Of a stretch of DNA of 64,000 bases, positions 30,146 through 37,523 are shown piece after piece. The stretch's first letter is position 1. Each line of letters opens with the position of its first letter. The DNA comes from Bacteroidota bacterium. GTDB lineage: Bacteria; Bacteroidota; Bacteroidia; Flavobacteriales_D; Crocinitomicaceae. Under the pieces are notes generated by a model that was not told the origin of the DNA, made no database searches, and saw only the letters and a list, made by a program, of their open reading frames with translations. Where the stretch lies: positions 1 through 64,000 of the forward strand of contig JACPUU010000009.1 of assembly GCA_016192075.1 (NCBI GenBank). The letters are read 5' to 3'. Made by a program: the position numbers and the translations under genes.

Positions 30146-31183
30146 ATGACAACAATTTTTACTGAATCAAAAATGACTGAACTGGTCCGGCTGATGAGCC
30201 GGGCCAAATCCATTGTTATTACATCGCATAAATCACCTGACGGAGACAGCATGGGCTGTTCCCTGGGACTGTTCCATTTTCTGCTGAAACAAGGTTATCC
30301 GGTAACGGTTTGCCACCCTGACATGGCTCCCTCATTCCTTCACTGGATGCCGGGCTCAGAGCATATAGTACTACTGGAGTCAGAACCCGAAAAAGCAAAA
30401 AAACTCCTTGAAAATGCTGACCTTATTTTCTGCCTGGATTATCACCACCCGTCACGCACTGGTAAAATGGAGGAATTGCTGGTTGCTTCAAAGGCCGGTA
30501 AAATTATTATTGACCATCACCGTGATCCTGACCAGGAATTTGCAACACTGCTTTTTTCAGACATCACCGCCAGCAGTACTTCCCAACTCATCTATGACTT
30601 CATTGAAGCACTGGACAGGCTTGATCTGATTGATGAAAAATCAGGCACGTGTATTTACACCGGCCTTGTAACCGATACCGGGTCGTTTCGCTTCTCTGCA
30701 ACATCTGCCAGAACCCACCATATTGCCGGTGACCTCATTAACCGGGGAATTAAAACATGGCAGGTTCATGAAAACCTGTTTGACACCAATTCATTGAATA
30801 AACTGAAAATGGTCAGCTATGCCCTGCTTGAAAAACTGGTTATACTGCCTGAATACAAAACTGCCTATATCTGGCTCACGCGTAAAGAAGAAGAACGCTT
30901 TCAGGTTATAAAAGGAGATACCGAAGGTTTGGTAAATCAGGTGCTTTCCATTGAAGGCATCCGGCTGGCAGGTTTCTTTAAAGAGGCCGACCAGATTATC
31001 AAAATATCATTCCGCTCAAAAGGAGAAATACCTGCCAACCAGTTGTGTAAAATGCATTTTGAAGGCGGCGGTCACCTGAATGCTTCAGGTGGAAAATATG
31101 TCGGTAAAATTGAAGATGCCGTGCAAAAATTTGTAACCATTCTTCCTAATTTCGTTGAAGAAAACAAAGCCCTTTTTGAATGA
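30146..31183 (+). CDS. DHH-family phosphoesterase, NrnA type
   Basis: This 345-aa protein has the DHH/DHHA1 arrangement of nanoRNases and pAp phosphatases. Visible are motif I SHKSPDGDSMGCSLG, motif II LIFCLDYHHPSRTGK, motif III IIIDHHRDPD, motif IV YTGLVTDTGSFRFSAT, and the DHHA1 signature GGGHLNASGGK near the C-terminus. The enzyme degrades very short RNA or 3'-phosphoadenosine 5'-phosphate with Mn(II). The next gene overlaps its stop by 4 bases. Confidence 0.9.
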   Translation: MTTIFTESKMTELVRLMSRAKSIVITSHKSPDGDSMGCSLGLFHFLLKQGYPVTVCHPDMAPSFLHWMPGSEHIVLLESEPEKAKKLLENADLIFCLDYHHPSRTGKMEELLVASKAGKIIIDHHRDPDQEFATLLFSDITASSTSQLIYDFIEALDRLDLIDEKSGTCIYTGLVTDTGSFRFSATSARTHHIAGDLINRGIKTWQVHENLFDTNSLNKLKMVSYALLEKLVILPEYKTAYIWLTRKEEERFQVIKGDTEGLVNQVLSIEGIRLAGFFKEADQIIKISFRSKGEIPANQLCKMHFEGGGHLNASGGKYVGKIEDAVQKFVTILPNFVEENKALFE

Positions 31184-31713
31184 AAACCCTCTCCCCTTTT
31201 CTGTTTGGCTTAATGTGTCTGGTTGCTTGTGCTGAACAGGAGCAAGAGCAGGTTCCGGTAATTGATCCGGACTGGACGCAGGACAACTCGTCAGACATGA
31301 ACCAGGTTTTTGCCGCTGAAGAAGAAGATGAAATTGACTTGTTTGTAGAACGTCACCAGGATTGGAAGGTAGTTGAAACCGGAACCGGGCTGCGCCATTT
31401 TATCTATTTCAAATCTGAAAATCACGACACCGCCCGCGTAGGTGATATTGCTACTGTTGATTTTGAAATTACCCTGCTCGATGGCTCCGTTTGCTATTCA
31501 TCAGCTGAAAACGGACCAGAGAGTTTTATGGTTGAGCACGCTGATATTGAAAGCGGACTCCATGAAGCCATGCAACTGCTTTGTACCGGTGACAAAGCCA
31601 AATTCATTCTGCCAAGCCGCATGGCCCATGGCCTTATTGGTGACGAAGAAAAAATTCCGCCCCTCACCACGGTTGTTTACGATATTCAGGTATTAAAAAT
31701 AGAACGTCCATGA
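31180..31713 (+). CDS. FKBP-type peptidyl-prolyl isomerase lipoprotein, GldI-like
   Basis: This 177-aa protein has a lipoprotein signal peptide (lipobox LVAC) and a single FKBP domain at residues about 70-175: DTARVGDIATVDFEITLLDG, GLHEAMQLLCTGDKAKFILPSRMAHG and IPPLTTVVYDIQVL. A DHH phosphoesterase followed by FKBP lipoproteins matches the gldI neighbourhood of Flavobacteriales, in which GldI is a gliding-motility isomerase. Whether this gene is the true orthologue is uncertain, so no symbol is assigned. It overlaps both neighbours by 4 bases. A protein chaperone for secreted or outer-membrane proteins is the likely role. Confidence 0.82.
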   Translation: MKTLSPFLFGLMCLVACAEQEQEQVPVIDPDWTQDNSSDMNQVFAAEEEDEIDLFVERHQDWKVVETGTGLRHFIYFKSENHDTARVGDIATVDFEITLLDGSVCYSSAENGPESFMVEHADIESGLHEAMQLLCTGDKAKFILPSRMAHGLIGDEEKIPPLTTVVYDIQVLKIERP

Positions 31714-32582
31714 AATACATGCTTTATTTAACAGCATTTACTGCCCTTGTTTCATGTGAACTAAAAGGGGTTGATGACGGAGAAGAAACCGGCACAACAG
31801 ATTCTGTAAAAGTAACTGTGGGAGAAAATGTGGTACTGGATGAAAACGGCAGAATGTTGTCAGACAGCGTTAATGGTGTGCCCAATCAAATGGTCTACAA
31901 CGGTGAAAAAGGCCTGCGTATAGAATGGACCAAAAAAAACACAACAGCTCAGCAAATCAGGTTAAATGATGTGGTCATGATTAATTATCATGCGCGCGTG
32001 GCCGGCGGCGAAGAATACGACTCCAATGACCCGATAGGTGAACCGGTACCGGTAAAAACCAATATTGGAATGCTCATTGAAGGTTGGGAAAAAGGTCTTT
32101 TATTCATGCACAAAGGAGATAAGGGGCGCATCATGATTCCAAATGCGATGGCTTATGGTGAAGACGGCTACCTGGATAAAGTGCCGCCAAAGGCAGATAT
32201 CATTGTAGATATTGAAATTATTGACATCATTACCCCTATAGTATTGGAAGAAGGTGTAAAAGTGTATAAATGGAAAACTTCTGACACCGGCAAAACACCT
32301 GAAAAAAACCAACTGATCACGTTTGATTACTTTGCTTTCATTAAAGGAGAAGATGGGCATTTGTATGACAATTCTTTTAAAAACGGTGTTTCTTTTTCAT
32401 TCAAATTTGAAAATGCAGGTGTTGTTGACGGGCTGCACCAGGGTATGAGTGTTATGAAAGCCGGAGAGAATGCCTACTTTGAAATACCAGCCAAACTGGC
32501 CTACGGCAAAAAAGGACTCCTTGACCTGGTGCCTGAAAATAGCGACATTGTTTACGATGTACGTGTAGTTTCGATTGAATAG
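31710..32582 (+). CDS. Two-domain FKBP-type isomerase lipoprotein
   Basis: This 290-aa protein has a lipoprotein signal peptide with lipobox LVSC and two FKBP domains in tandem. The first (about 85-175) has LNDVVMINYHARVAGG and LLFMHKGDKGRIMIPNAMAYG. The second (about 195-290) has NQLITFDYFAFIKGEDG and GLHQGMSVMKAGENAYFEIPAKLAYG. FKBP domains catalyse cis-trans isomerisation of proline bonds and act as chaperones in the periplasm. It ends the nrnA-FKBP-FKBP operon. Confidence 0.85.
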   Translation: MKYMLYLTAFTALVSCELKGVDDGEETGTTDSVKVTVGENVVLDENGRMLSDSVNGVPNQMVYNGEKGLRIEWTKKNTTAQQIRLNDVVMINYHARVAGGEEYDSNDPIGEPVPVKTNIGMLIEGWEKGLLFMHKGDKGRIMIPNAMAYGEDGYLDKVPPKADIIVDIEIIDIITPIVLEEGVKVYKWKTSDTGKTPEKNQLITFDYFAFIKGEDGHLYDNSFKNGVSFSFKFENAGVVDGLHQGMSVMKAGENAYFEIPAKLAYGKKGLLDLVPENSDIVYDVRVVSIE

Positions 32583-32680: not shown

Positions 32681-34900
32681 ATGAAATCACTATTACTTGC
32701 AGGCATTGTTCCGTTTCTGCTTCATCCGGCTGTTTATGGCCAGAATTTTTACGATATTTCTACCATACAGCACATTGAAATAACCTTTTCGCAAAGCAAT
32801 TGGGACTATATTCTCGACACCGCCAAAACCGGATCAGACAGTTATACCCTGGCTGACTGGGTTGAAATTAACGGTGTTTACTTTGACAGCGTAGGCGTAA
32901 AATATAAAGGAAACAGTTCTTACAACGCTACCAACACAAAAAATCCACTGCATATAGAACTTGATCATTTTAAATCGCAGGACTATAATGGAACCAAGGA
33001 TATTAAATTAAGTAACGGTTTTCATGATCCGTCAACGGTAAGGGAAGTATACCTCTACTACATTGCCCGCCAGTACATGCCTGCACCCCGGGCAAATTAC
33101 ACACAGGTAATAATCAATGGTCAGCCCATGGGGCTTTACACCAATGTTGAAGCCATAACCGGTACATTTTTAGCTGATCACTTTTTCAGCCAGGACAATC
33201 CATTTATTTTTGCTGACAGCGGTGGATGCGGCCTTACCTTTCCAGGTTCCGACTCAACCTTGTATTACACACCTTACACACTCAAATCAGACTATGGATA
33301 CGCCGCCCTTTCACAACTTTGCGATACGCTCGAAAATAACGGCGCCGCAATAGAAAACATATTGGATGTAGACCGGACCTTATGGATGCTTGCGTTTGAC
33401 AACGTTACGGTTACACTTGACAGTTACCTCGGAAATTCAAAACATAATTATTACCTCTACCAGGATGAAAACGGACGATTTAATCCAATTGTCTGGGATT
33501 TAAACGGTGGATTGGGTGGGTTCAGCCAGGCCTCCCCGGGCCCCGGGTTATCGGTTGCACAATTGCAAACACTTTCACCCACCCTTCACGCAACAGATTC
33601 GCTGTGGCCACTGGTCAGTAATTTATTGCAGGTGCCCATGTACCGTAAAATGTACATTGCCCACATGCGCACTATTCTCAACGAAAATTTCGTGGATTCA
33701 GTGTATTACAATTTCACCCAGAATCTTCAGGCAATTATTGATACCGCTTATCAGTCAGATCTGAATGCCTTTTATAGCTATTACGAGTTTACATCAAACC
33801 TGACAGACAATGTGATAGATGGCCCTAAAACAATTCCCGGCCTCACTTACCTGATGGAAGAGCGAATTTCTTTTCTGAACAGCACCACTGAATTTCAGCA
33901 AATACCCCCGGTCATTGCGTCAGTCACTTCGTCTGACGATTCGCCGCCCATGAACAGCACCGTTTTTATAACAGCTGATGTCAGCAATACTTCCGGTGTA
34001 TTTATCGGAACCCGTAATTCTATTACTGAAAAATTTGTTCGCCAGCCGATGTTTGATGACGGAGCTCACGGCGATGGTGCGCCGGGGGATAATTTATTTG
34101 GTGTTGAAATTGCGGTAGGGTCAGGCAGCACCCAATATTATATCTATGCAGAAAATACAAGTGCCGGAGTATTTTCACCTGAACGTGCTGAATACGAATA
34201 TTACCTTTTAGAACCTGAAAAAGGCGTTGTGATAAATGAAATTATGGCCGATAACCAAACAACACAGCCTGATTCTTACGGCGAATACAATGACTGGGTT
34301 GAACTTTATAACAACTCATCTTCACCCATTGACCTGGGCGGATACTATTTAAGTGATGATCTTCTGAATCCGGCTAAATGGACTTTTCCGGCCGGGTCTG
34401 TAATTGAAGCCGGAGATTTTCTGATTGTATGGACCGATGCCGATTCAACACAAATTTTCGGGCTCCACACCAATTTCAAATTAGCTGCCTCAGGTGAAGC
34501 AGTTATTCTTTCAGATACAGCACTTCAATCAATTGATCAAATACTCTTTTCTGATTTGGGTGCAGATATTACGTTTGGCAGATATCCAAACGGAACCGGA
34601 CCTTTTATGGAACTTTATCCATCGTACAATGCACTGAATTCACAAGTGGTTTCAATTGATCAAAGCAACCAGGAATTAAATACAGATTTTACCGTTTATC
34701 CGAATCCGGCAACTGATTTTATCACCATTGCAACTGATTTTACAGAACCAAAAACATACGTTATCTATAACAGCGCCGGCACCTTGTTAGTTTCAGATTG
34801 GATTACAGAAAAAACAACGATACCTGTTTCTTCACTCTCATCAGGGGTTTATTTTGTGCGGATTGGCGATAAAACAAAAAAACTTATTATCGCACATTAA
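32681..34900 (+). CDS. CotH-kinase-like secreted protein with lamin-tail and T9SS domains
   Basis: This is a 739-aa secreted protein. After the signal peptide (about 1-20, ending VYG) comes a CotH kinase domain (about 30-390): GNSSYNATNTKNPLHIELD, YVNVEAI-like Gly-Leu-Tyr strand, the catalytic-loop region with D247 in LDSYLGNSKHNYYLYQD, and the metal-site Asp in VWDLN (D273). Then a bacterial Ig-like stretch, a lamin-tail domain (about 515-620, KGVVINEIMADN), and a C-terminal T9SS sorting domain (about 668-739, VYPNPATDFITIATD). CotH kinases phosphorylate proteins on Ser or Thr outside the cytoplasm. WDLN replaces the more common WDxD, so activity is uncertain. Confidence 0.85.
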   Translation: MKSLLLAGIVPFLLHPAVYGQNFYDISTIQHIEITFSQSNWDYILDTAKTGSDSYTLADWVEINGVYFDSVGVKYKGNSSYNATNTKNPLHIELDHFKSQDYNGTKDIKLSNGFHDPSTVREVYLYYIARQYMPAPRANYTQVIINGQPMGLYTNVEAITGTFLADHFFSQDNPFIFADSGGCGLTFPGSDSTLYYTPYTLKSDYGYAALSQLCDTLENNGAAIENILDVDRTLWMLAFDNVTVTLDSYLGNSKHNYYLYQDENGRFNPIVWDLNGGLGGFSQASPGPGLSVAQLQTLSPTLHATDSLWPLVSNLLQVPMYRKMYIAHMRTILNENFVDSVYYNFTQNLQAIIDTAYQSDLNAFYSYYEFTSNLTDNVIDGPKTIPGLTYLMEERISFLNSTTEFQQIPPVIASVTSSDDSPPMNSTVFITADVSNTSGVFIGTRNSITEKFVRQPMFDDGAHGDGAPGDNLFGVEIAVGSGSTQYYIYAENTSAGVFSPERAEYEYYLLEPEKGVVINEIMADNQTTQPDSYGEYNDWVELYNNSSSPIDLGGYYLSDDLLNPAKWTFPAGSVIEAGDFLIVWTDADSTQIFGLHTNFKLAASGEAVILSDTALQSIDQILFSDLGADITFGRYPNGTGPFMELYPSYNALNSQVVSIDQSNQELNTDFTVYPNPATDFITIATDFTEPKTYVIYNSAGTLLVSDWITEKTTIPVSSLSSGVYFVRIGDKTKKLIIAH

Positions 34901-35045
34901 AAGCAGCATTGGTCGGGCATCCAGCATGTCTGCTGCCTTGGCTGTTTCAATAAATACCGCTGATTAATCAATCTATTTTCATTTCCAGACAACCCTTGTA
35001 TTTTGTCTTTGTATTTAGGTCAGAAACACTAAAAACTACGAGAAT

Positions 35046-35384
35046 ATGGAAACTAAAAAATTAATGATCGCATCAATTGTTGCCGGAAGCATTTCAATCC
35101 TTTTTCCTTCCTGCGAACCTGAAACACCGGTACCGGGAGATCCATCACTGATTGATTCAATCTGGCAGGACCCGAATGATACAACAGGCACCGGTGGCGG
35201 AGGCGGAACAAACGATGATTCAACCTTCTACGGCGGTGGTACAGATACCACAGGATACGGCGGCGGCGGTACAGATACTACAGGATATGGCGGCGGTGGC
35301 GGCTGGGGTGATACAACCGGATACGGCGGCGGTGGCTGGGGTGATACAACCGGCTGGGGTGATTCAACCAACTTTGGAGGATAA
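35046..35384 (+). CDS. Gly-rich tandem-repeat lipoprotein
   Basis: This 112-aa protein has a lipoprotein signal peptide with lipobox FPSC, a short Pro-rich region, and then a repeat array of DTTGYGGGG units ending in GWGDSTNFGG. The repeats consist almost only of Gly, Thr, Tyr, Trp, Asp and Ser and should be disordered. The order of genes is CotH-like kinase, this protein, sigma factor. It could be a surface tether, an adhesin or a target of the kinase, but no function is known. The stop is 41 bases before the sigma-factor start. Confidence 0.7.
   Translation: METKKLMIASIVAGSISILFPSCEPETPVPGDPSLIDSIWQDPNDTTGTGGGGGTNDDSTFYGGGTDTTGYGGGGTDTTGYGGGGGWGDTTGYGGGGWGDTTGWGDSTNFGG
35231..35368 (+). 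repeat. Tandem repeat inside the Gly-rich lipoprotein gene
   Basis: The first two units (35238-35267 and 35268-35297) are each 30 bases and differ at four or five positions, mostly synonymous. They are followed by 33-base and shorter variants that add a GGCTGGGG segment. Copy number may vary between strains. Confidence 0.75.
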
Positions 35385-35425: not shown

Positions 35426-35989
35426 TTGGACAAAAAAAAATTAGCACAGGAATTTATCCGCGGAGACAAAGCGGCTTTTGATTGGATTTACACCAATTAC
35501 GCTAAAGGTATGTACGCTATTTGCCTGCGCTATACTAAAAATCAGGACGAAGCAGCTGATATTTTACAAGAGGCTTTTATTAAAGTTTACGAAAAAAGAT
35601 CACTCTTTAATCCTGTCTATGAAATTGGTCCCTGGGTAAAACGCATTGTCATCAACCAGGCTATTAACCATTTTCGGTCAAACAAACGGTTTGAACTGGT
35701 TGAAGATGATAGCTACTTCGAAGAACCTGAAGAAACGCTTGAAATTGAAGATTTAAATAACGTACGGGAAGCTCTTGTGACAATTCTGCAAGAGCTTCCT
35801 GAAGGTTATCGAACCGTATTTAACATGTACGTGATTGACAACCTCACACACCAGGAAATTGCCGAGTACCTGGGCGTATCTGTCAACACTTCCAAAACAC
35901 AGCTTTTGAAAGCACGCAAATTGATTCGTCAAAAGCTGGAAGAACGAAAAATAACCCGATCAAGCATTAAAGATGAGCAAGGAATTTAA
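35426..35989 (+). CDS. ECF-type RNA polymerase sigma factor
   Basis: This 187-aa sigma factor has region 2 (residues about 10-75, with FDWIYTNYAKGMYAICLRYTKNQDEAADILQEAFIKVYE) and region 4 (about 115-175, LPEGYRTVFNMYVIDNLTHQEIAEYLGVSVNTSKTQLLKARKLIRQKL). No ATG lies near, so the TTG at 35426 (TTG GAC AAA AAA AAA) is the start. Its last 17 bases overlap the next gene, which is predicted to be its anti-sigma factor, so the two are translationally coupled. Target promoters are unknown; the operon itself may be among them. Confidence 0.9.
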   Translation: MDKKKLAQEFIRGDKAAFDWIYTNYAKGMYAICLRYTKNQDEAADILQEAFIKVYEKRSLFNPVYEIGPWVKRIVINQAINHFRSNKRFELVEDDSYFEEPEETLEIEDLNNVREALVTILQELPEGYRTVFNMYVIDNLTHQEIAEYLGVSVNTSKTQLLKARKLIRQKLEERKITRSSIKDEQGI

Positions 35990-37523
35990 AAATATGGACG
36001 ACCTGTTCAGAGAAACATTTGCTGACGAACAAGCAGATGTTCCGGCCTTTGTCAAATCAAACATTGACGAACGTCTGGGGTTTCATAAAAAGAAAACCGG
36101 ATGGAAGTGGGGAACTGCGCTTCTTGGCCTTTTACTGATTTCAGCCGGCGTGCTGTGGTTTTCAGGTGATCCTGAAAAAACGCAGCTGTCTGTTGATCAA
36201 AACACCACGCAAACAACAGGCAACCAGCCTGCTGAAACACCATCCATCTCTGCTCAAAACAGTAACCCTACAAACACGACAGATCAGATTCTGACAATTG
36301 AAACGAACACTGAACCTGTTGCCGCTTCTGGCCTGTCCTCAGGTTCAGGCATGGCAGAAACAGACGCCTCAGGCGGAGCTGTTTCCAATTCTTCCGGTAC
36401 ATTTCAACCAACCAAAAACCAGCGGCACACCAACCCGCATAGTACTTCTATGTCTGGCAAAAATGAAACGCAACCCGGCGGAACGTCAGAACAGGCCGGA
36501 CTTTCGGAACAAACTGCCACATCAGAACCAACGGGTGCTGACAGATCAGAAACTACCTGTACTTTAGCGGTTACAAGCACCTCAACCAACGCAACTGAAA
36601 GCAGCCAGAATACCTCTTCAACTTTTGATAGAAGCTACAAAACACCTGTTAACCTGGCATATCGTGCGCAGGAAAAAAATGACGGACAAACGGCATTGAC
36701 AATAACTCATGGCCCCGTTTCAACTTCGAATTGGTTTAAAACAGATTCGAAAACAAACATACCCGATGCCACGCTCATTGAACGCGGAGAATATTATAAT
36801 CCATGGATGATATCAGCTACGGCGGGGATCAACTTTGCCCAGTCAAAATATACATTTCAAACCAACACTGAAAAAATTTATTACGATAACTCCACCTTTA
36901 TGGCACCCGGCTTTGAAGGAAACATGGATGTCAAATACCGGCTCAAAAACAGCCTGACCTTTGGAACAGGTGCAGGCATTTCCCAACTCGTTGAAAATTA
37001 CAATTTCTTTAAAGAATCTGTAGACATTGATACAACCATTGTTTGGCAATACCAGAATGTTTACCAATATGACTCGCTGCTGGACACCACTATTTTTATC
37101 GGGATCGATTCCACTTCTACCGCAACGTATGACAGCACCAAAATAACGTTGTACAATGAAAACGGTACTACCAAAGCCACGTATCTGCAGATACCATTCA
37201 GTATTGGAACCCAGATTATCCGCAACAAATTCCGGTTTGATTTATTTGTCATGGGGCGTTTCAATTATCTCATTAATGGATCAGGAGGCTATTTACAGAA
37301 TGATGTTTTTATGGCATTTACCAAAACTCAAAATGAAATTTTTAAAACCTGGTACATTGATTTAATGATTGGCGGAGCCGTGCATTACCAACTCTTTGAA
37401 AAACTCTACCTGACAGGTACTTTCAGATTTCATCCGGCATTGGGGCAGCTTTACGAAGGGCTTGATTTTAACCGGAGTATCCAGTCATTTCATGCCGGTT
37501 TGGGGGTGAGTCTGAAACTATAG
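35973..37523 (+). CDS. Predicted dual-membrane-spanning anti-sigma factor
   Basis: This 516-aa protein begins with a 45-residue cytoplasmic segment (MDDLFRETFADEQADVPAFV and following), then one membrane helix (about 46-64), a periplasmic Thr/Ser/Asn/Gln-rich linker of about 200 residues (about 70-270), and a C-terminal region (about 274-516) with alternating aromatic strands like an outer-membrane beta-barrel: YYNPWMISATAGINFAQSKY, GTGAGISQLVENYNFF, and a final strand AGLGVSLKL. The layout, next to an ECF sigma factor, matches proteins described as Dma1-type in Bacteroides. Start ATG 35973, or ATG 35994 directly after the sigma stop. It ends in CTATAG, shared with the opposite gene. Confidence 0.75.
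   Translation: MSKEFKNMDDLFRETFADEQADVPAFVKSNIDERLGFHKKKTGWKWGTALLGLLLISAGVLWFSGDPEKTQLSVDQNTTQTTGNQPAETPSISAQNSNPTNTTDQILTIETNTEPVAASGLSSGSGMAETDASGGAVSNSSGTFQPTKNQRHTNPHSTSMSGKNETQPGGTSEQAGLSEQTATSEPTGADRSETTCTLAVTSTSTNATESSQNTSSTFDRSYKTPVNLAYRAQEKNDGQTALTITHGPVSTSNWFKTDSKTNIPDATLIERGEYYNPWMISATAGINFAQSKYTFQTNTEKIYYDNSTFMAPGFEGNMDVKYRLKNSLTFGTGAGISQLVENYNFFKESVDIDTTIVWQYQNVYQYDSLLDTTIFIGIDSTSTATYDSTKITLYNENGTTKATYLQIPFSIGTQIIRNKFRFDLFVMGRFNYLINGSGGYLQNDVFMAFTKTQNEIFKTWYIDLMIGGAVHYQLFEKLYLTGTFRFHPALGQLYEGLDFNRSIQSFHAGLGVSLKL

Follow-up and report, generated by a model that had tools for sequence, protein, structure and literature searches.

The window analysed here, a stretch of 64,000 nucleotides, comes from a bacterium of Crocinitomicaceae (Flavobacteriales), a mostly marine family. 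Between positions 35426 and 37523 it carries an ECF sigma factor gene followed by a gene for a partner protein of 516 residues. The two genes, the parts of the partner and the upstream neighbours are arranged as follows.

31180-31713, plus strand: FKBP-type isomerase gene, GldI-like below the cut-off (NCBIfam GldI 93.3 bits, cut-off 157.6)
31710-32582, plus strand: tandem FKBP-type isomerase gene, lipoprotein-like (Pfam FKBP_C 125.2 bits)
32681-34900: CotH-family (CotH-kinase/LTD) gene that carries a type IX tail, flanked by the FKBP genes and the 112-aa ORF
34988-35013, plus strand: candidate promoter for the sigma factor, GACAACC-N15-TGTA (CAAC at 34990-34993, TGTA at 35010-35013), upstream of the 112-aa ORF
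35046-35384, plus strand: ORF of 112 aa, lipoprotein-like and Gly/Thr-rich, between the candidate site and the sigma gene
35426-35989, plus strand: ECF sigma factor gene, 187 aa, TTG start (Pfam Sigma70_r2 and Sigma70_r4_2)
35973-37523, plus strand: gene of the probable Dma-type trans-envelope anti-sigma factor, 516 aa (ORF, predicted structure, profile comparison)
35973-36095, plus strand: partner residues 1-41, presumed to lie in the cytoplasm and bind the sigma factor (two predicted helices, conserved motif)
36096-36161, plus strand: partner residues 42-63, transmembrane helix preceded by a Lys-rich stretch (hydropathy, AlphaFold2 helix)
36162-36803, plus strand: partner residues 64-277, disordered tether (low pLDDT)
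36804-37520, plus strand: partner residues 278-516, predicted eight-strand barrel (AlphaFold2, VIA-align)
37029-37139, plus strand: partner residues 353-389, longest barrel loop with its strand ends (AlphaFold2 loop 358-382, motif positions)

The gene pair is confirmed as real. An earlier sequence-only reading had proposed a sigma factor and a 516-aa partner with a short cytoplasmic segment and a single helix; both ORFs are present, overlapping by 17 bases, and hydropathy and AlphaFold2 agree on the helix. Chance is excluded as the origin of the pair, because ten other loci share the same build after an orthologous sigma gene. The sigma factor matches two Pfam families above their cut-offs (Sigma70_r4_2, 61.9 bits; Sigma70_r2, 53.1 bits), and its gene starts with a codon other than ATG in 13 of 13 loci, that is, in the window and its 12 nearest relatives (L011-L022). 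TTG is used in the window and ten of these relatives, CTG in L019 and GTG in L021, and no in-frame ATG was seen upstream of the start at any of the 13 loci; the non-ATG start is a conserved weak start. The partner matches no Pfam family at E up to 1, and its sole NCBIfam match is to GltJ, over the tether (14.4 bits, cut-off 450). A PADLOC search gave no defence-system match.

The partner contains one hydrophobic helix, its best 19-residue window scoring 1.74 at residue 47, with a runner-up elsewhere of 0.73. In the AlphaFold2 model, which was built from 11 alignment rows, helices are placed at residues 8-15, 25-34 and 42-63, the first two with low confidence (block pLDDT 43-55). The N-terminus carries the conserved motif KEFKNIDDLF...VPAxVKxNID, and a structure search with this presumed sigma-binding end against solved structures returned chance matches only (enolase, E 0.13 or more). 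The long low-complexity linker that had been noticed in the sequence is borne out by the model, in which residues 58-271 are unstructured (pLDDT <50). The tether comes to about 214 residues, and Thr makes up 18% and Ser 14% of residues 63-277. Its composition had been called unusual, but it is ordinary for the group, since Ser and Thr together make up 32% of the window's tether and 21-32% in ten relatives. The tether has 163-274 residues in the window's group (11 rows) and 114-260 in 24 more distant rows; its sequence drifts, yet its length never falls below 114 residues in the 35 aligned barrel-bearing rows. PMC12578637 gives D-T/S-hydrophobic as an O-glycosylation consensus. D[ST][AILVMT] motifs of this type number 0-4 in the tether of each relative and zero in that of the window, and the idea of an O-glycosylated tether was dropped on these counts.

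An eight-strand barrel had been expected in residues 274-516, and AlphaFold2 indeed predicts eight long strands between residues 278 and 515 (278-294, 308-323, 328-357, 383-417, 420-442, 460-475, 478-487 and 500-515), together with an extra strand of five residues (445-449) within a barrel loop. Block pLDDT is 73-95 in the barrel, save for residues 351-390 (31-54). The turns between strands 2-3, 4-5 and 6-7 have 2-4 residues, and the remaining four loops, on the opposite side, have 12-25. The barrel begins and ends on the short-turn, presumably periplasmic, side, as is required if the tether arrives from the periplasm. Five D[ST][AILVMT] motifs sit in residues 353-389. VIA-align relates the model to small outer-membrane barrels with Z of 16-19: the designed barrel 6x9z (Z 18.9, rmsd 1.6, 116 aligned), OmpA 9a2m (Z 16.4, rmsd 2.9, 170 aligned), NspA 1p4t (Z 16.3, rmsd 2.9, 152 aligned) and OmpW 2f1v (Z 16.0, rmsd 2.8, 170 aligned). 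The Pfam families OMP_b-brl and OMP_b-brl_2 leave the window partner unmatched at E up to 1 and, at E up to 0.01, match none of the 11 proteins in its group.

The same pair is found on Crocinitomix algicola contig NZ_LYPF02000019.1. A first scan for relatives with the 516-aa partner protein found none, so the sigma alignment was used to find them. A search with the partner protein gave matches in 6 of 59 genomes, the genome of the window included, and the distribution of the pair is therefore patchy; the match in G048 is weak and its gene broken, with the tether and barrel of a related partner lying in different frames (L006), which reflects either a broken gene or an assembly error. In the order as a whole, a profile match occurs in 79 of 299 genomes, a count made without locus-by-locus inspection and with many partial matches.

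The gene after the sigma gene was examined in 80 loci found with the sigma alignment. Ten of the 12 nearest have a full-length partner of the same build, which in L012 has a very divergent barrel and an overall identity of 17%; the sequence of L013 stops before the partner and L022 yields a partial frame only. The other 68 loci have partners of 387-614 aa (30 loci) or of 170-219 aa (34 loci), apart from two of intermediate length, one of them cut by a contig end, and two loci that stop before the partner. Among the 23 loci titled Saprospiraceae, 21 have a short partner, one has a long one (L052) and one has no partner within the locus. Twenty-four of the 30 long partners were taken as barrel-bearing and aligned, and six (L024, L025, L047, L052, L065 and L086) were excluded on account of C-termini or lengths that seemed to differ. 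At E up to 0.01, 13 of these 24 distant partners match OMP_b-brl_2 and 8 match OMP_b-brl. The predicted structure of a Reichenbachiella partner has helices at 2-17 and 25-71, a disordered stretch with one helix (72-206) and eight strands, and its barrel aligns with NspA (VIA-align Z 17.9) and OmpA (Z 17.6). The pair in L088, a record titled Rickettsiales, groups with Cytophagales in the sigma tree, and the record is probably a mislabelled metagenome bin. Several short partners (L038-L090) end in an acidic C-terminus with a hydrophobic last residue (e.g., DETNI, DETSI, EEVSL), which could be a recognised tail.

The genome of the window holds further pairs. It has 29 sigma-region matches (28 above the cut-off), and the gene next to each of the other 28 was checked. 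The partner in L130 resembles a tethered barrel (OMP_b-brl 29.0 bits, cut-off 28.7), as does that in L142 (a weak outer-membrane match of 24.8 bits, cut-off 135), and that in L133 was judged by eye to be one, which gives four small-barrel pairs in this genome, two of them (L133, L142) judged mainly by eye. Three other partners carry outer parts of different kinds:

L122:3376-4449, plus strand: partner with helix, tether, PKD and CHU_C type IX sorting domain (CHU_C match)
L132:1307-2623, minus strand: partner with helix, tether, PKD and CHU_C type IX sorting domain (CHU_C match)
L128:3459-5135, plus strand: partner with a barrel of the PorP/SprF family as its C-terminal half (75.1 bits, cut-off 22.3)

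The L122 and L132 partners score 58.6 and 52.4 bits with CHU_C (cut-off 27) and 36.1 and 42.0 with TIGR04131 (cut-off 35), so that these putative anti-sigma factors look like type IX secretion substrates, and the L128 partner reaches 81.2 with the NCBIfam PorP model, below its cut-off of 90.55. Each of these two kinds of partner was searched in 150 genomes of the family, this one included. An ECF gene directly precedes the PorP-type partner in 20 of 20 loci examined and the CHU_C-type partner in 26 of 30; of the remaining four, L172, L177 and L185 end at a contig boundary and L197 matches the CHU_C part only. No ECF partner fused to a type IX sorting domain or to PorP/SprF is named in the literature titles and abstract openings covered. 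By eye, the partner L142:897-2588 (minus strand) has about four tandem copies of the sigma-binding segment, L133:1313-2641 (minus strand) also has tandem copies, and the gene after the sigma gene in L134 has three, with no helix above threshold; such tandem segments would possibly make one anchor for several sigma factors.

The sequence-only reading had likened the partner to the Dma proteins and suggested a candidate from another lineage, and both halves of the protein now point the same way. According to PMC13088901, the dma2 operon has the order das2, dma2, DUF4943 gene, with a DUF4858 gene alongside. Searching 148 genomes of the phylum for DUF4858 turned up a single weak match, and searching 120 genomes of the family of that match for DUF4943 turned up none. 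In 247 genomes of the class, DUF4943 gave seven matches, two of which were read (L198 and L199, two genomes of one genus); both have the order sigma gene, partner gene (351-356 aa), DUF4943 gene and a further gene, and their partners, with a helix and a barrel-like end, are taken as Dma2 orthologues by gene order. When the first 80 residues of the 11 rows of the window's group were compared with the two orthologues, hhalign gave 93.9% over 73 columns with 21% identity, a pairwise percentage that is not database-calibrated and comes from a stretch that includes the hydrophobic transmembrane helix. The barrel part gave 83.9% against a Dma2 orthologue (E 7.7e-6, 139 columns), on the same pairwise footing, and the short partners, mostly from Saprospiraceae, aligned poorly with the window group (16.8%).

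The sigma factors lead in the same direction. Sigmas were scanned for in 121 loci, of which L120 yielded none, and a tree of 94 rows was made by a quick method, with 34 open forks and several long own-genome branches; the short-partner group was represented by 11 of its 34 members and the CHU_C and PorP groups by samples, and four loci with no usable partner were omitted. The own-genome rows need not all be ECF factors; L119, for one, resembles the primary sigma factor. The window sigma and ten relatives form a clade of 11 rows (SH-aLRT 100), nested in a clade of 68 rows (SH-aLRT 96) that includes the two Dma2-operon sigmas and also holds the long, short and CHU_C groups. Seven own-genome sigmas fall in this larger clade (the window's and those of L122, L127, L130, L132, L133 and L142), and 21 of the 27 other own-genome sigma-70-family rows, the PorP type among them, fall outside it. 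Taken together, the profile alignment of both partner ends and the sigma clade support the placement of the pair in the Dma kind.

As is predicted for the window pair, Dma1/Dma2 with Das1/Das2 combine an N-terminal anti-sigma segment, one transmembrane helix, a disordered tether and a C-terminal beta-barrel, and the Dma1 and Dma2 genes also adjoin an ECF sigma gene. The window pair differs from the Dma of the gut bacterium Bacteroides thetaiotaomicron in its lineage, Flavobacteriales, and from the Dma2 orthologues in its tether (213 residues against about 130), in its surroundings (FKBP isomerase genes near the pairs of the window group, the DUF4943 gene near theirs) and in the CAAC-TGTA/TGTC site described below, which is missing upstream of both Dma2 operons. 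Signalling of the FecR/FecA type likewise runs from an outer-membrane signal through an inner-membrane anti-sigma factor to an ECF sigma factor, but the membrane parts proposed here are one chain with a small eight-strand barrel instead of a TonB-dependent transducer. The RseA/DegS sigma-E response shares with the proposed model an inner-membrane anti-sigma factor and envelope stress as the likely input, whereas RseA stops short of the outer membrane. PMC13114119 describes an ECF/anti-sigma pair of Phocaeicola vulgatus, cirYZ, that shares a transcript with a gene resembling the one for Spy, a periplasmic chaperone; this may parallel the folding theme taken up below.

A second conserved feature lies upstream of the sigma gene, where CAAC-N16/17-TGTA occurs in 10 of 13 loci (counted in the window before 35046) and is missing within 200 bp in L013, L014 and L017. 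Shuffled regions contain it 0.08 times on average and twice at most. A fairer control, because the motif was picked on the same regions, is the highest count that any 4+4 dyad reaches in each of 200 shuffled sets, which averages 4.3 with a maximum of 7, against the 10 observed. In the more distant loci (L023-L090, regions of 250 bp), the form CAAC-N16/17-TGTC, read off the same regions in which it was counted, stands upstream of the sigma gene in 17 of 29 long-partner and 19 of 34 short-partner loci (shuffle means 0.13 and 0.26, maximum 2). Elsewhere it is found in 1/8 CHU_C loci, 0/10 of the window group, 0/3 own barrels, 0/6 PorP loci, 0/2 Dma2 operons and 0/21 other sigmas of the genome. 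The corresponding counts for CAAC-N17/18-GTCT are 16/29 (long), 18/34 (short), 6/8 (CHU_C), 1/10 (window group), 1/3 (own barrels, in L142), 0/6 (PorP), 0/2 (Dma2 operons) and 0/21 (other sigmas of the genome). Since the loci are related and not independent, all these counts overstate the number of events. The site is read as a putative promoter type, widespread in the sigma branch, of which the window's group has a TGTA form. Across the seven pair-bearing genomes, GRCAACC-N14/15-TGTA shows no enrichment (53 matches against 52 in the control), and the window's own genome has 15 against 13. Of 30 genome-wide site-match loci examined, 11 are intergenic by an ORF test; among a set of 24 site-match loci, eight could not be framed and went uncounted (L246, L251, L254-L259). 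A site before a PorV/PorQ-family gene in two genomes was rejected, as the upstream sequences prove, by eye, to be coding sequence from the 3' end of the gene before it.

As for the neighbouring genes, the 112-aa ORF, which has no Pfam or NCBIfam match, is probably the first gene of the operon. A block of NrnA-like, GldI-like FKBP and tandem FKBP genes precedes the sigma gene in 10 of 12 loci, and FKBP genes lie near it in 10 of the 11 testable relatives (L014 has less than 0.4 kb upstream, and L021 is without them over 4 kb). From the end of the tandem FKBP gene to the sigma gene there are 75-265 bp in seven loci and 0.8-1.1 kb in L011, L013 and L017. Downstream, an AlaS gene lies on the opposite strand in 7 of 12 loci. 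The CotH protein of the window is unmatched in the 12 nearest loci. The tandem FKBP protein is not called BamJ: it scores 88.2 bits, below the cut-off of 100, and a gene above that cut-off (109 bits) lies elsewhere in the genome.

The explanation that fits best overall, and that we consider quite probable, is a sigma/anti-sigma pair of the Dma kind that would span the envelope and free its sigma factor upon failure or disturbance of the barrel. Partner residues 1-41 would hold the sigma factor at the inner membrane, which the partner would cross once, and the tether would run through the periplasm to a barrel that BAM would have inserted into the outer membrane. If insertion failed or the barrel were disturbed, the tether could be exposed or pulled and the partner cut; the freed sigma factor would then transcribe its own operon from the CAAC-N16-TGTA site, plus other genes. 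Autoregulation of this kind has a counterpart in the dma2 mutant of B. thetaiotaomicron, where das2 rises by 4.54 log2 (PMC13088901), from which it follows that the das2/dma2 pair is self-activating. With moderate confidence, the likeliest signal is outer-membrane protein assembly, because folding by BAM precedes anchoring of the barrel and because FKBP genes adjoin the pair in most relatives. Against this theme, the CotH gene and the 112-aa ORF separate the FKBP genes from the pair in the window, L021 lacks the FKBP gene, the tandem FKBP protein is not BamJ, and the genome-wide site matches are not above control, so that no regulon speaks for assembly sensing.

The same architecture could instead serve a receptor, in which the outer loops would bind an outside ligand or partner protein and the event would be relayed via the tether. 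The four 12-25-residue loops on one side of the barrel, the longest with five O-glycosylation-type motifs when its strand ends are included, would suit such a role, and the further pairs of this genome with other barrel-like partners would suit different inputs. This longest loop, however, is poorly conserved in both sequence and length across the relatives, no ligand pocket is shown, and 213 residues of disordered tether would presumably transmit a change of shape poorly. We hold a receptor to be rather unlikely. More doubtful still is that the tether is cut soon after export, leaving a barrel and an ordinary membrane anti-sigma factor as separate proteins whose fusion only matches their numbers. 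Half of the distant sigmas (34/68) have partners of 170-219 aa, too short for a tethered-barrel build, and since 21 of the 23 loci titled Saprospiraceae are of this kind the barrel seems unnecessary for the switch in that branch; but the tether keeps at least 114 residues in all 35 aligned barrel-bearing rows, as spanning needs, and the Dma proteins are described with domains that reach from the outer membrane into the cytosol (PMC13088901). Control of vesicle formation, which the pair might share with Dma1 and Dma2, we hold to be unlikely, although architecture and sequence kinship favour it by analogy and mutation of dma1 or dma2 increases vesicle output in B. thetaiotaomicron. The same source reports that Dma1 and Dma2 have distinct regulons and that a dma3 mutation does not revert the hypervesiculation of dma1 and dma2 mutants (PMC13088901), so that the family has no single output, and nothing noticed around the pair points to vesicles. 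What is known of Dma1 and Dma2 in this respect should not be carried over to the window pair.

Returning to a trans-envelope switch of the Dma kind, the sibling pairs suggest, tentatively and with some doubt on our part, that Bacteroidota may build on a single plan, consisting of a cytoplasmic sigma-holding end, one membrane helix and a disordered tether, to which various outer modules, clients or components of different export routes, are fitted interchangeably. Small barrels would stand for the BAM route, PorP/SprF barrels for type IX secretion, and PKD with type B sorting domains for the substrates of type IX secretion. A given sigma factor would be coupled to the test molecule of a single route, and either failure of that route or export of the molecule would set the sigma factor free. 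As the sigma factor of the PorP/SprF pair (L128) belongs to a different branch, outside the 68-row Dma clade, the shared design would have arisen at least twice.

The switch of the Dma type, described in B. thetaiotaomicron (PMC13088901), is thus placed in a flavobacterial lineage, with likely kin in Cytophagales and other Bacteroidota. Beyond this kinship, the locus adds a conserved upstream site, a conserved non-ATG start of the sigma gene and nearby FKBP isomerase genes. The window pair offers a simple way of testing whether a Dma-type protein reports on the assembly of outer-membrane proteins. The sibling switches, with their type IX modules, provide a direct means of studying how the state of type IX secretion might be sensed in Bacteroidota.
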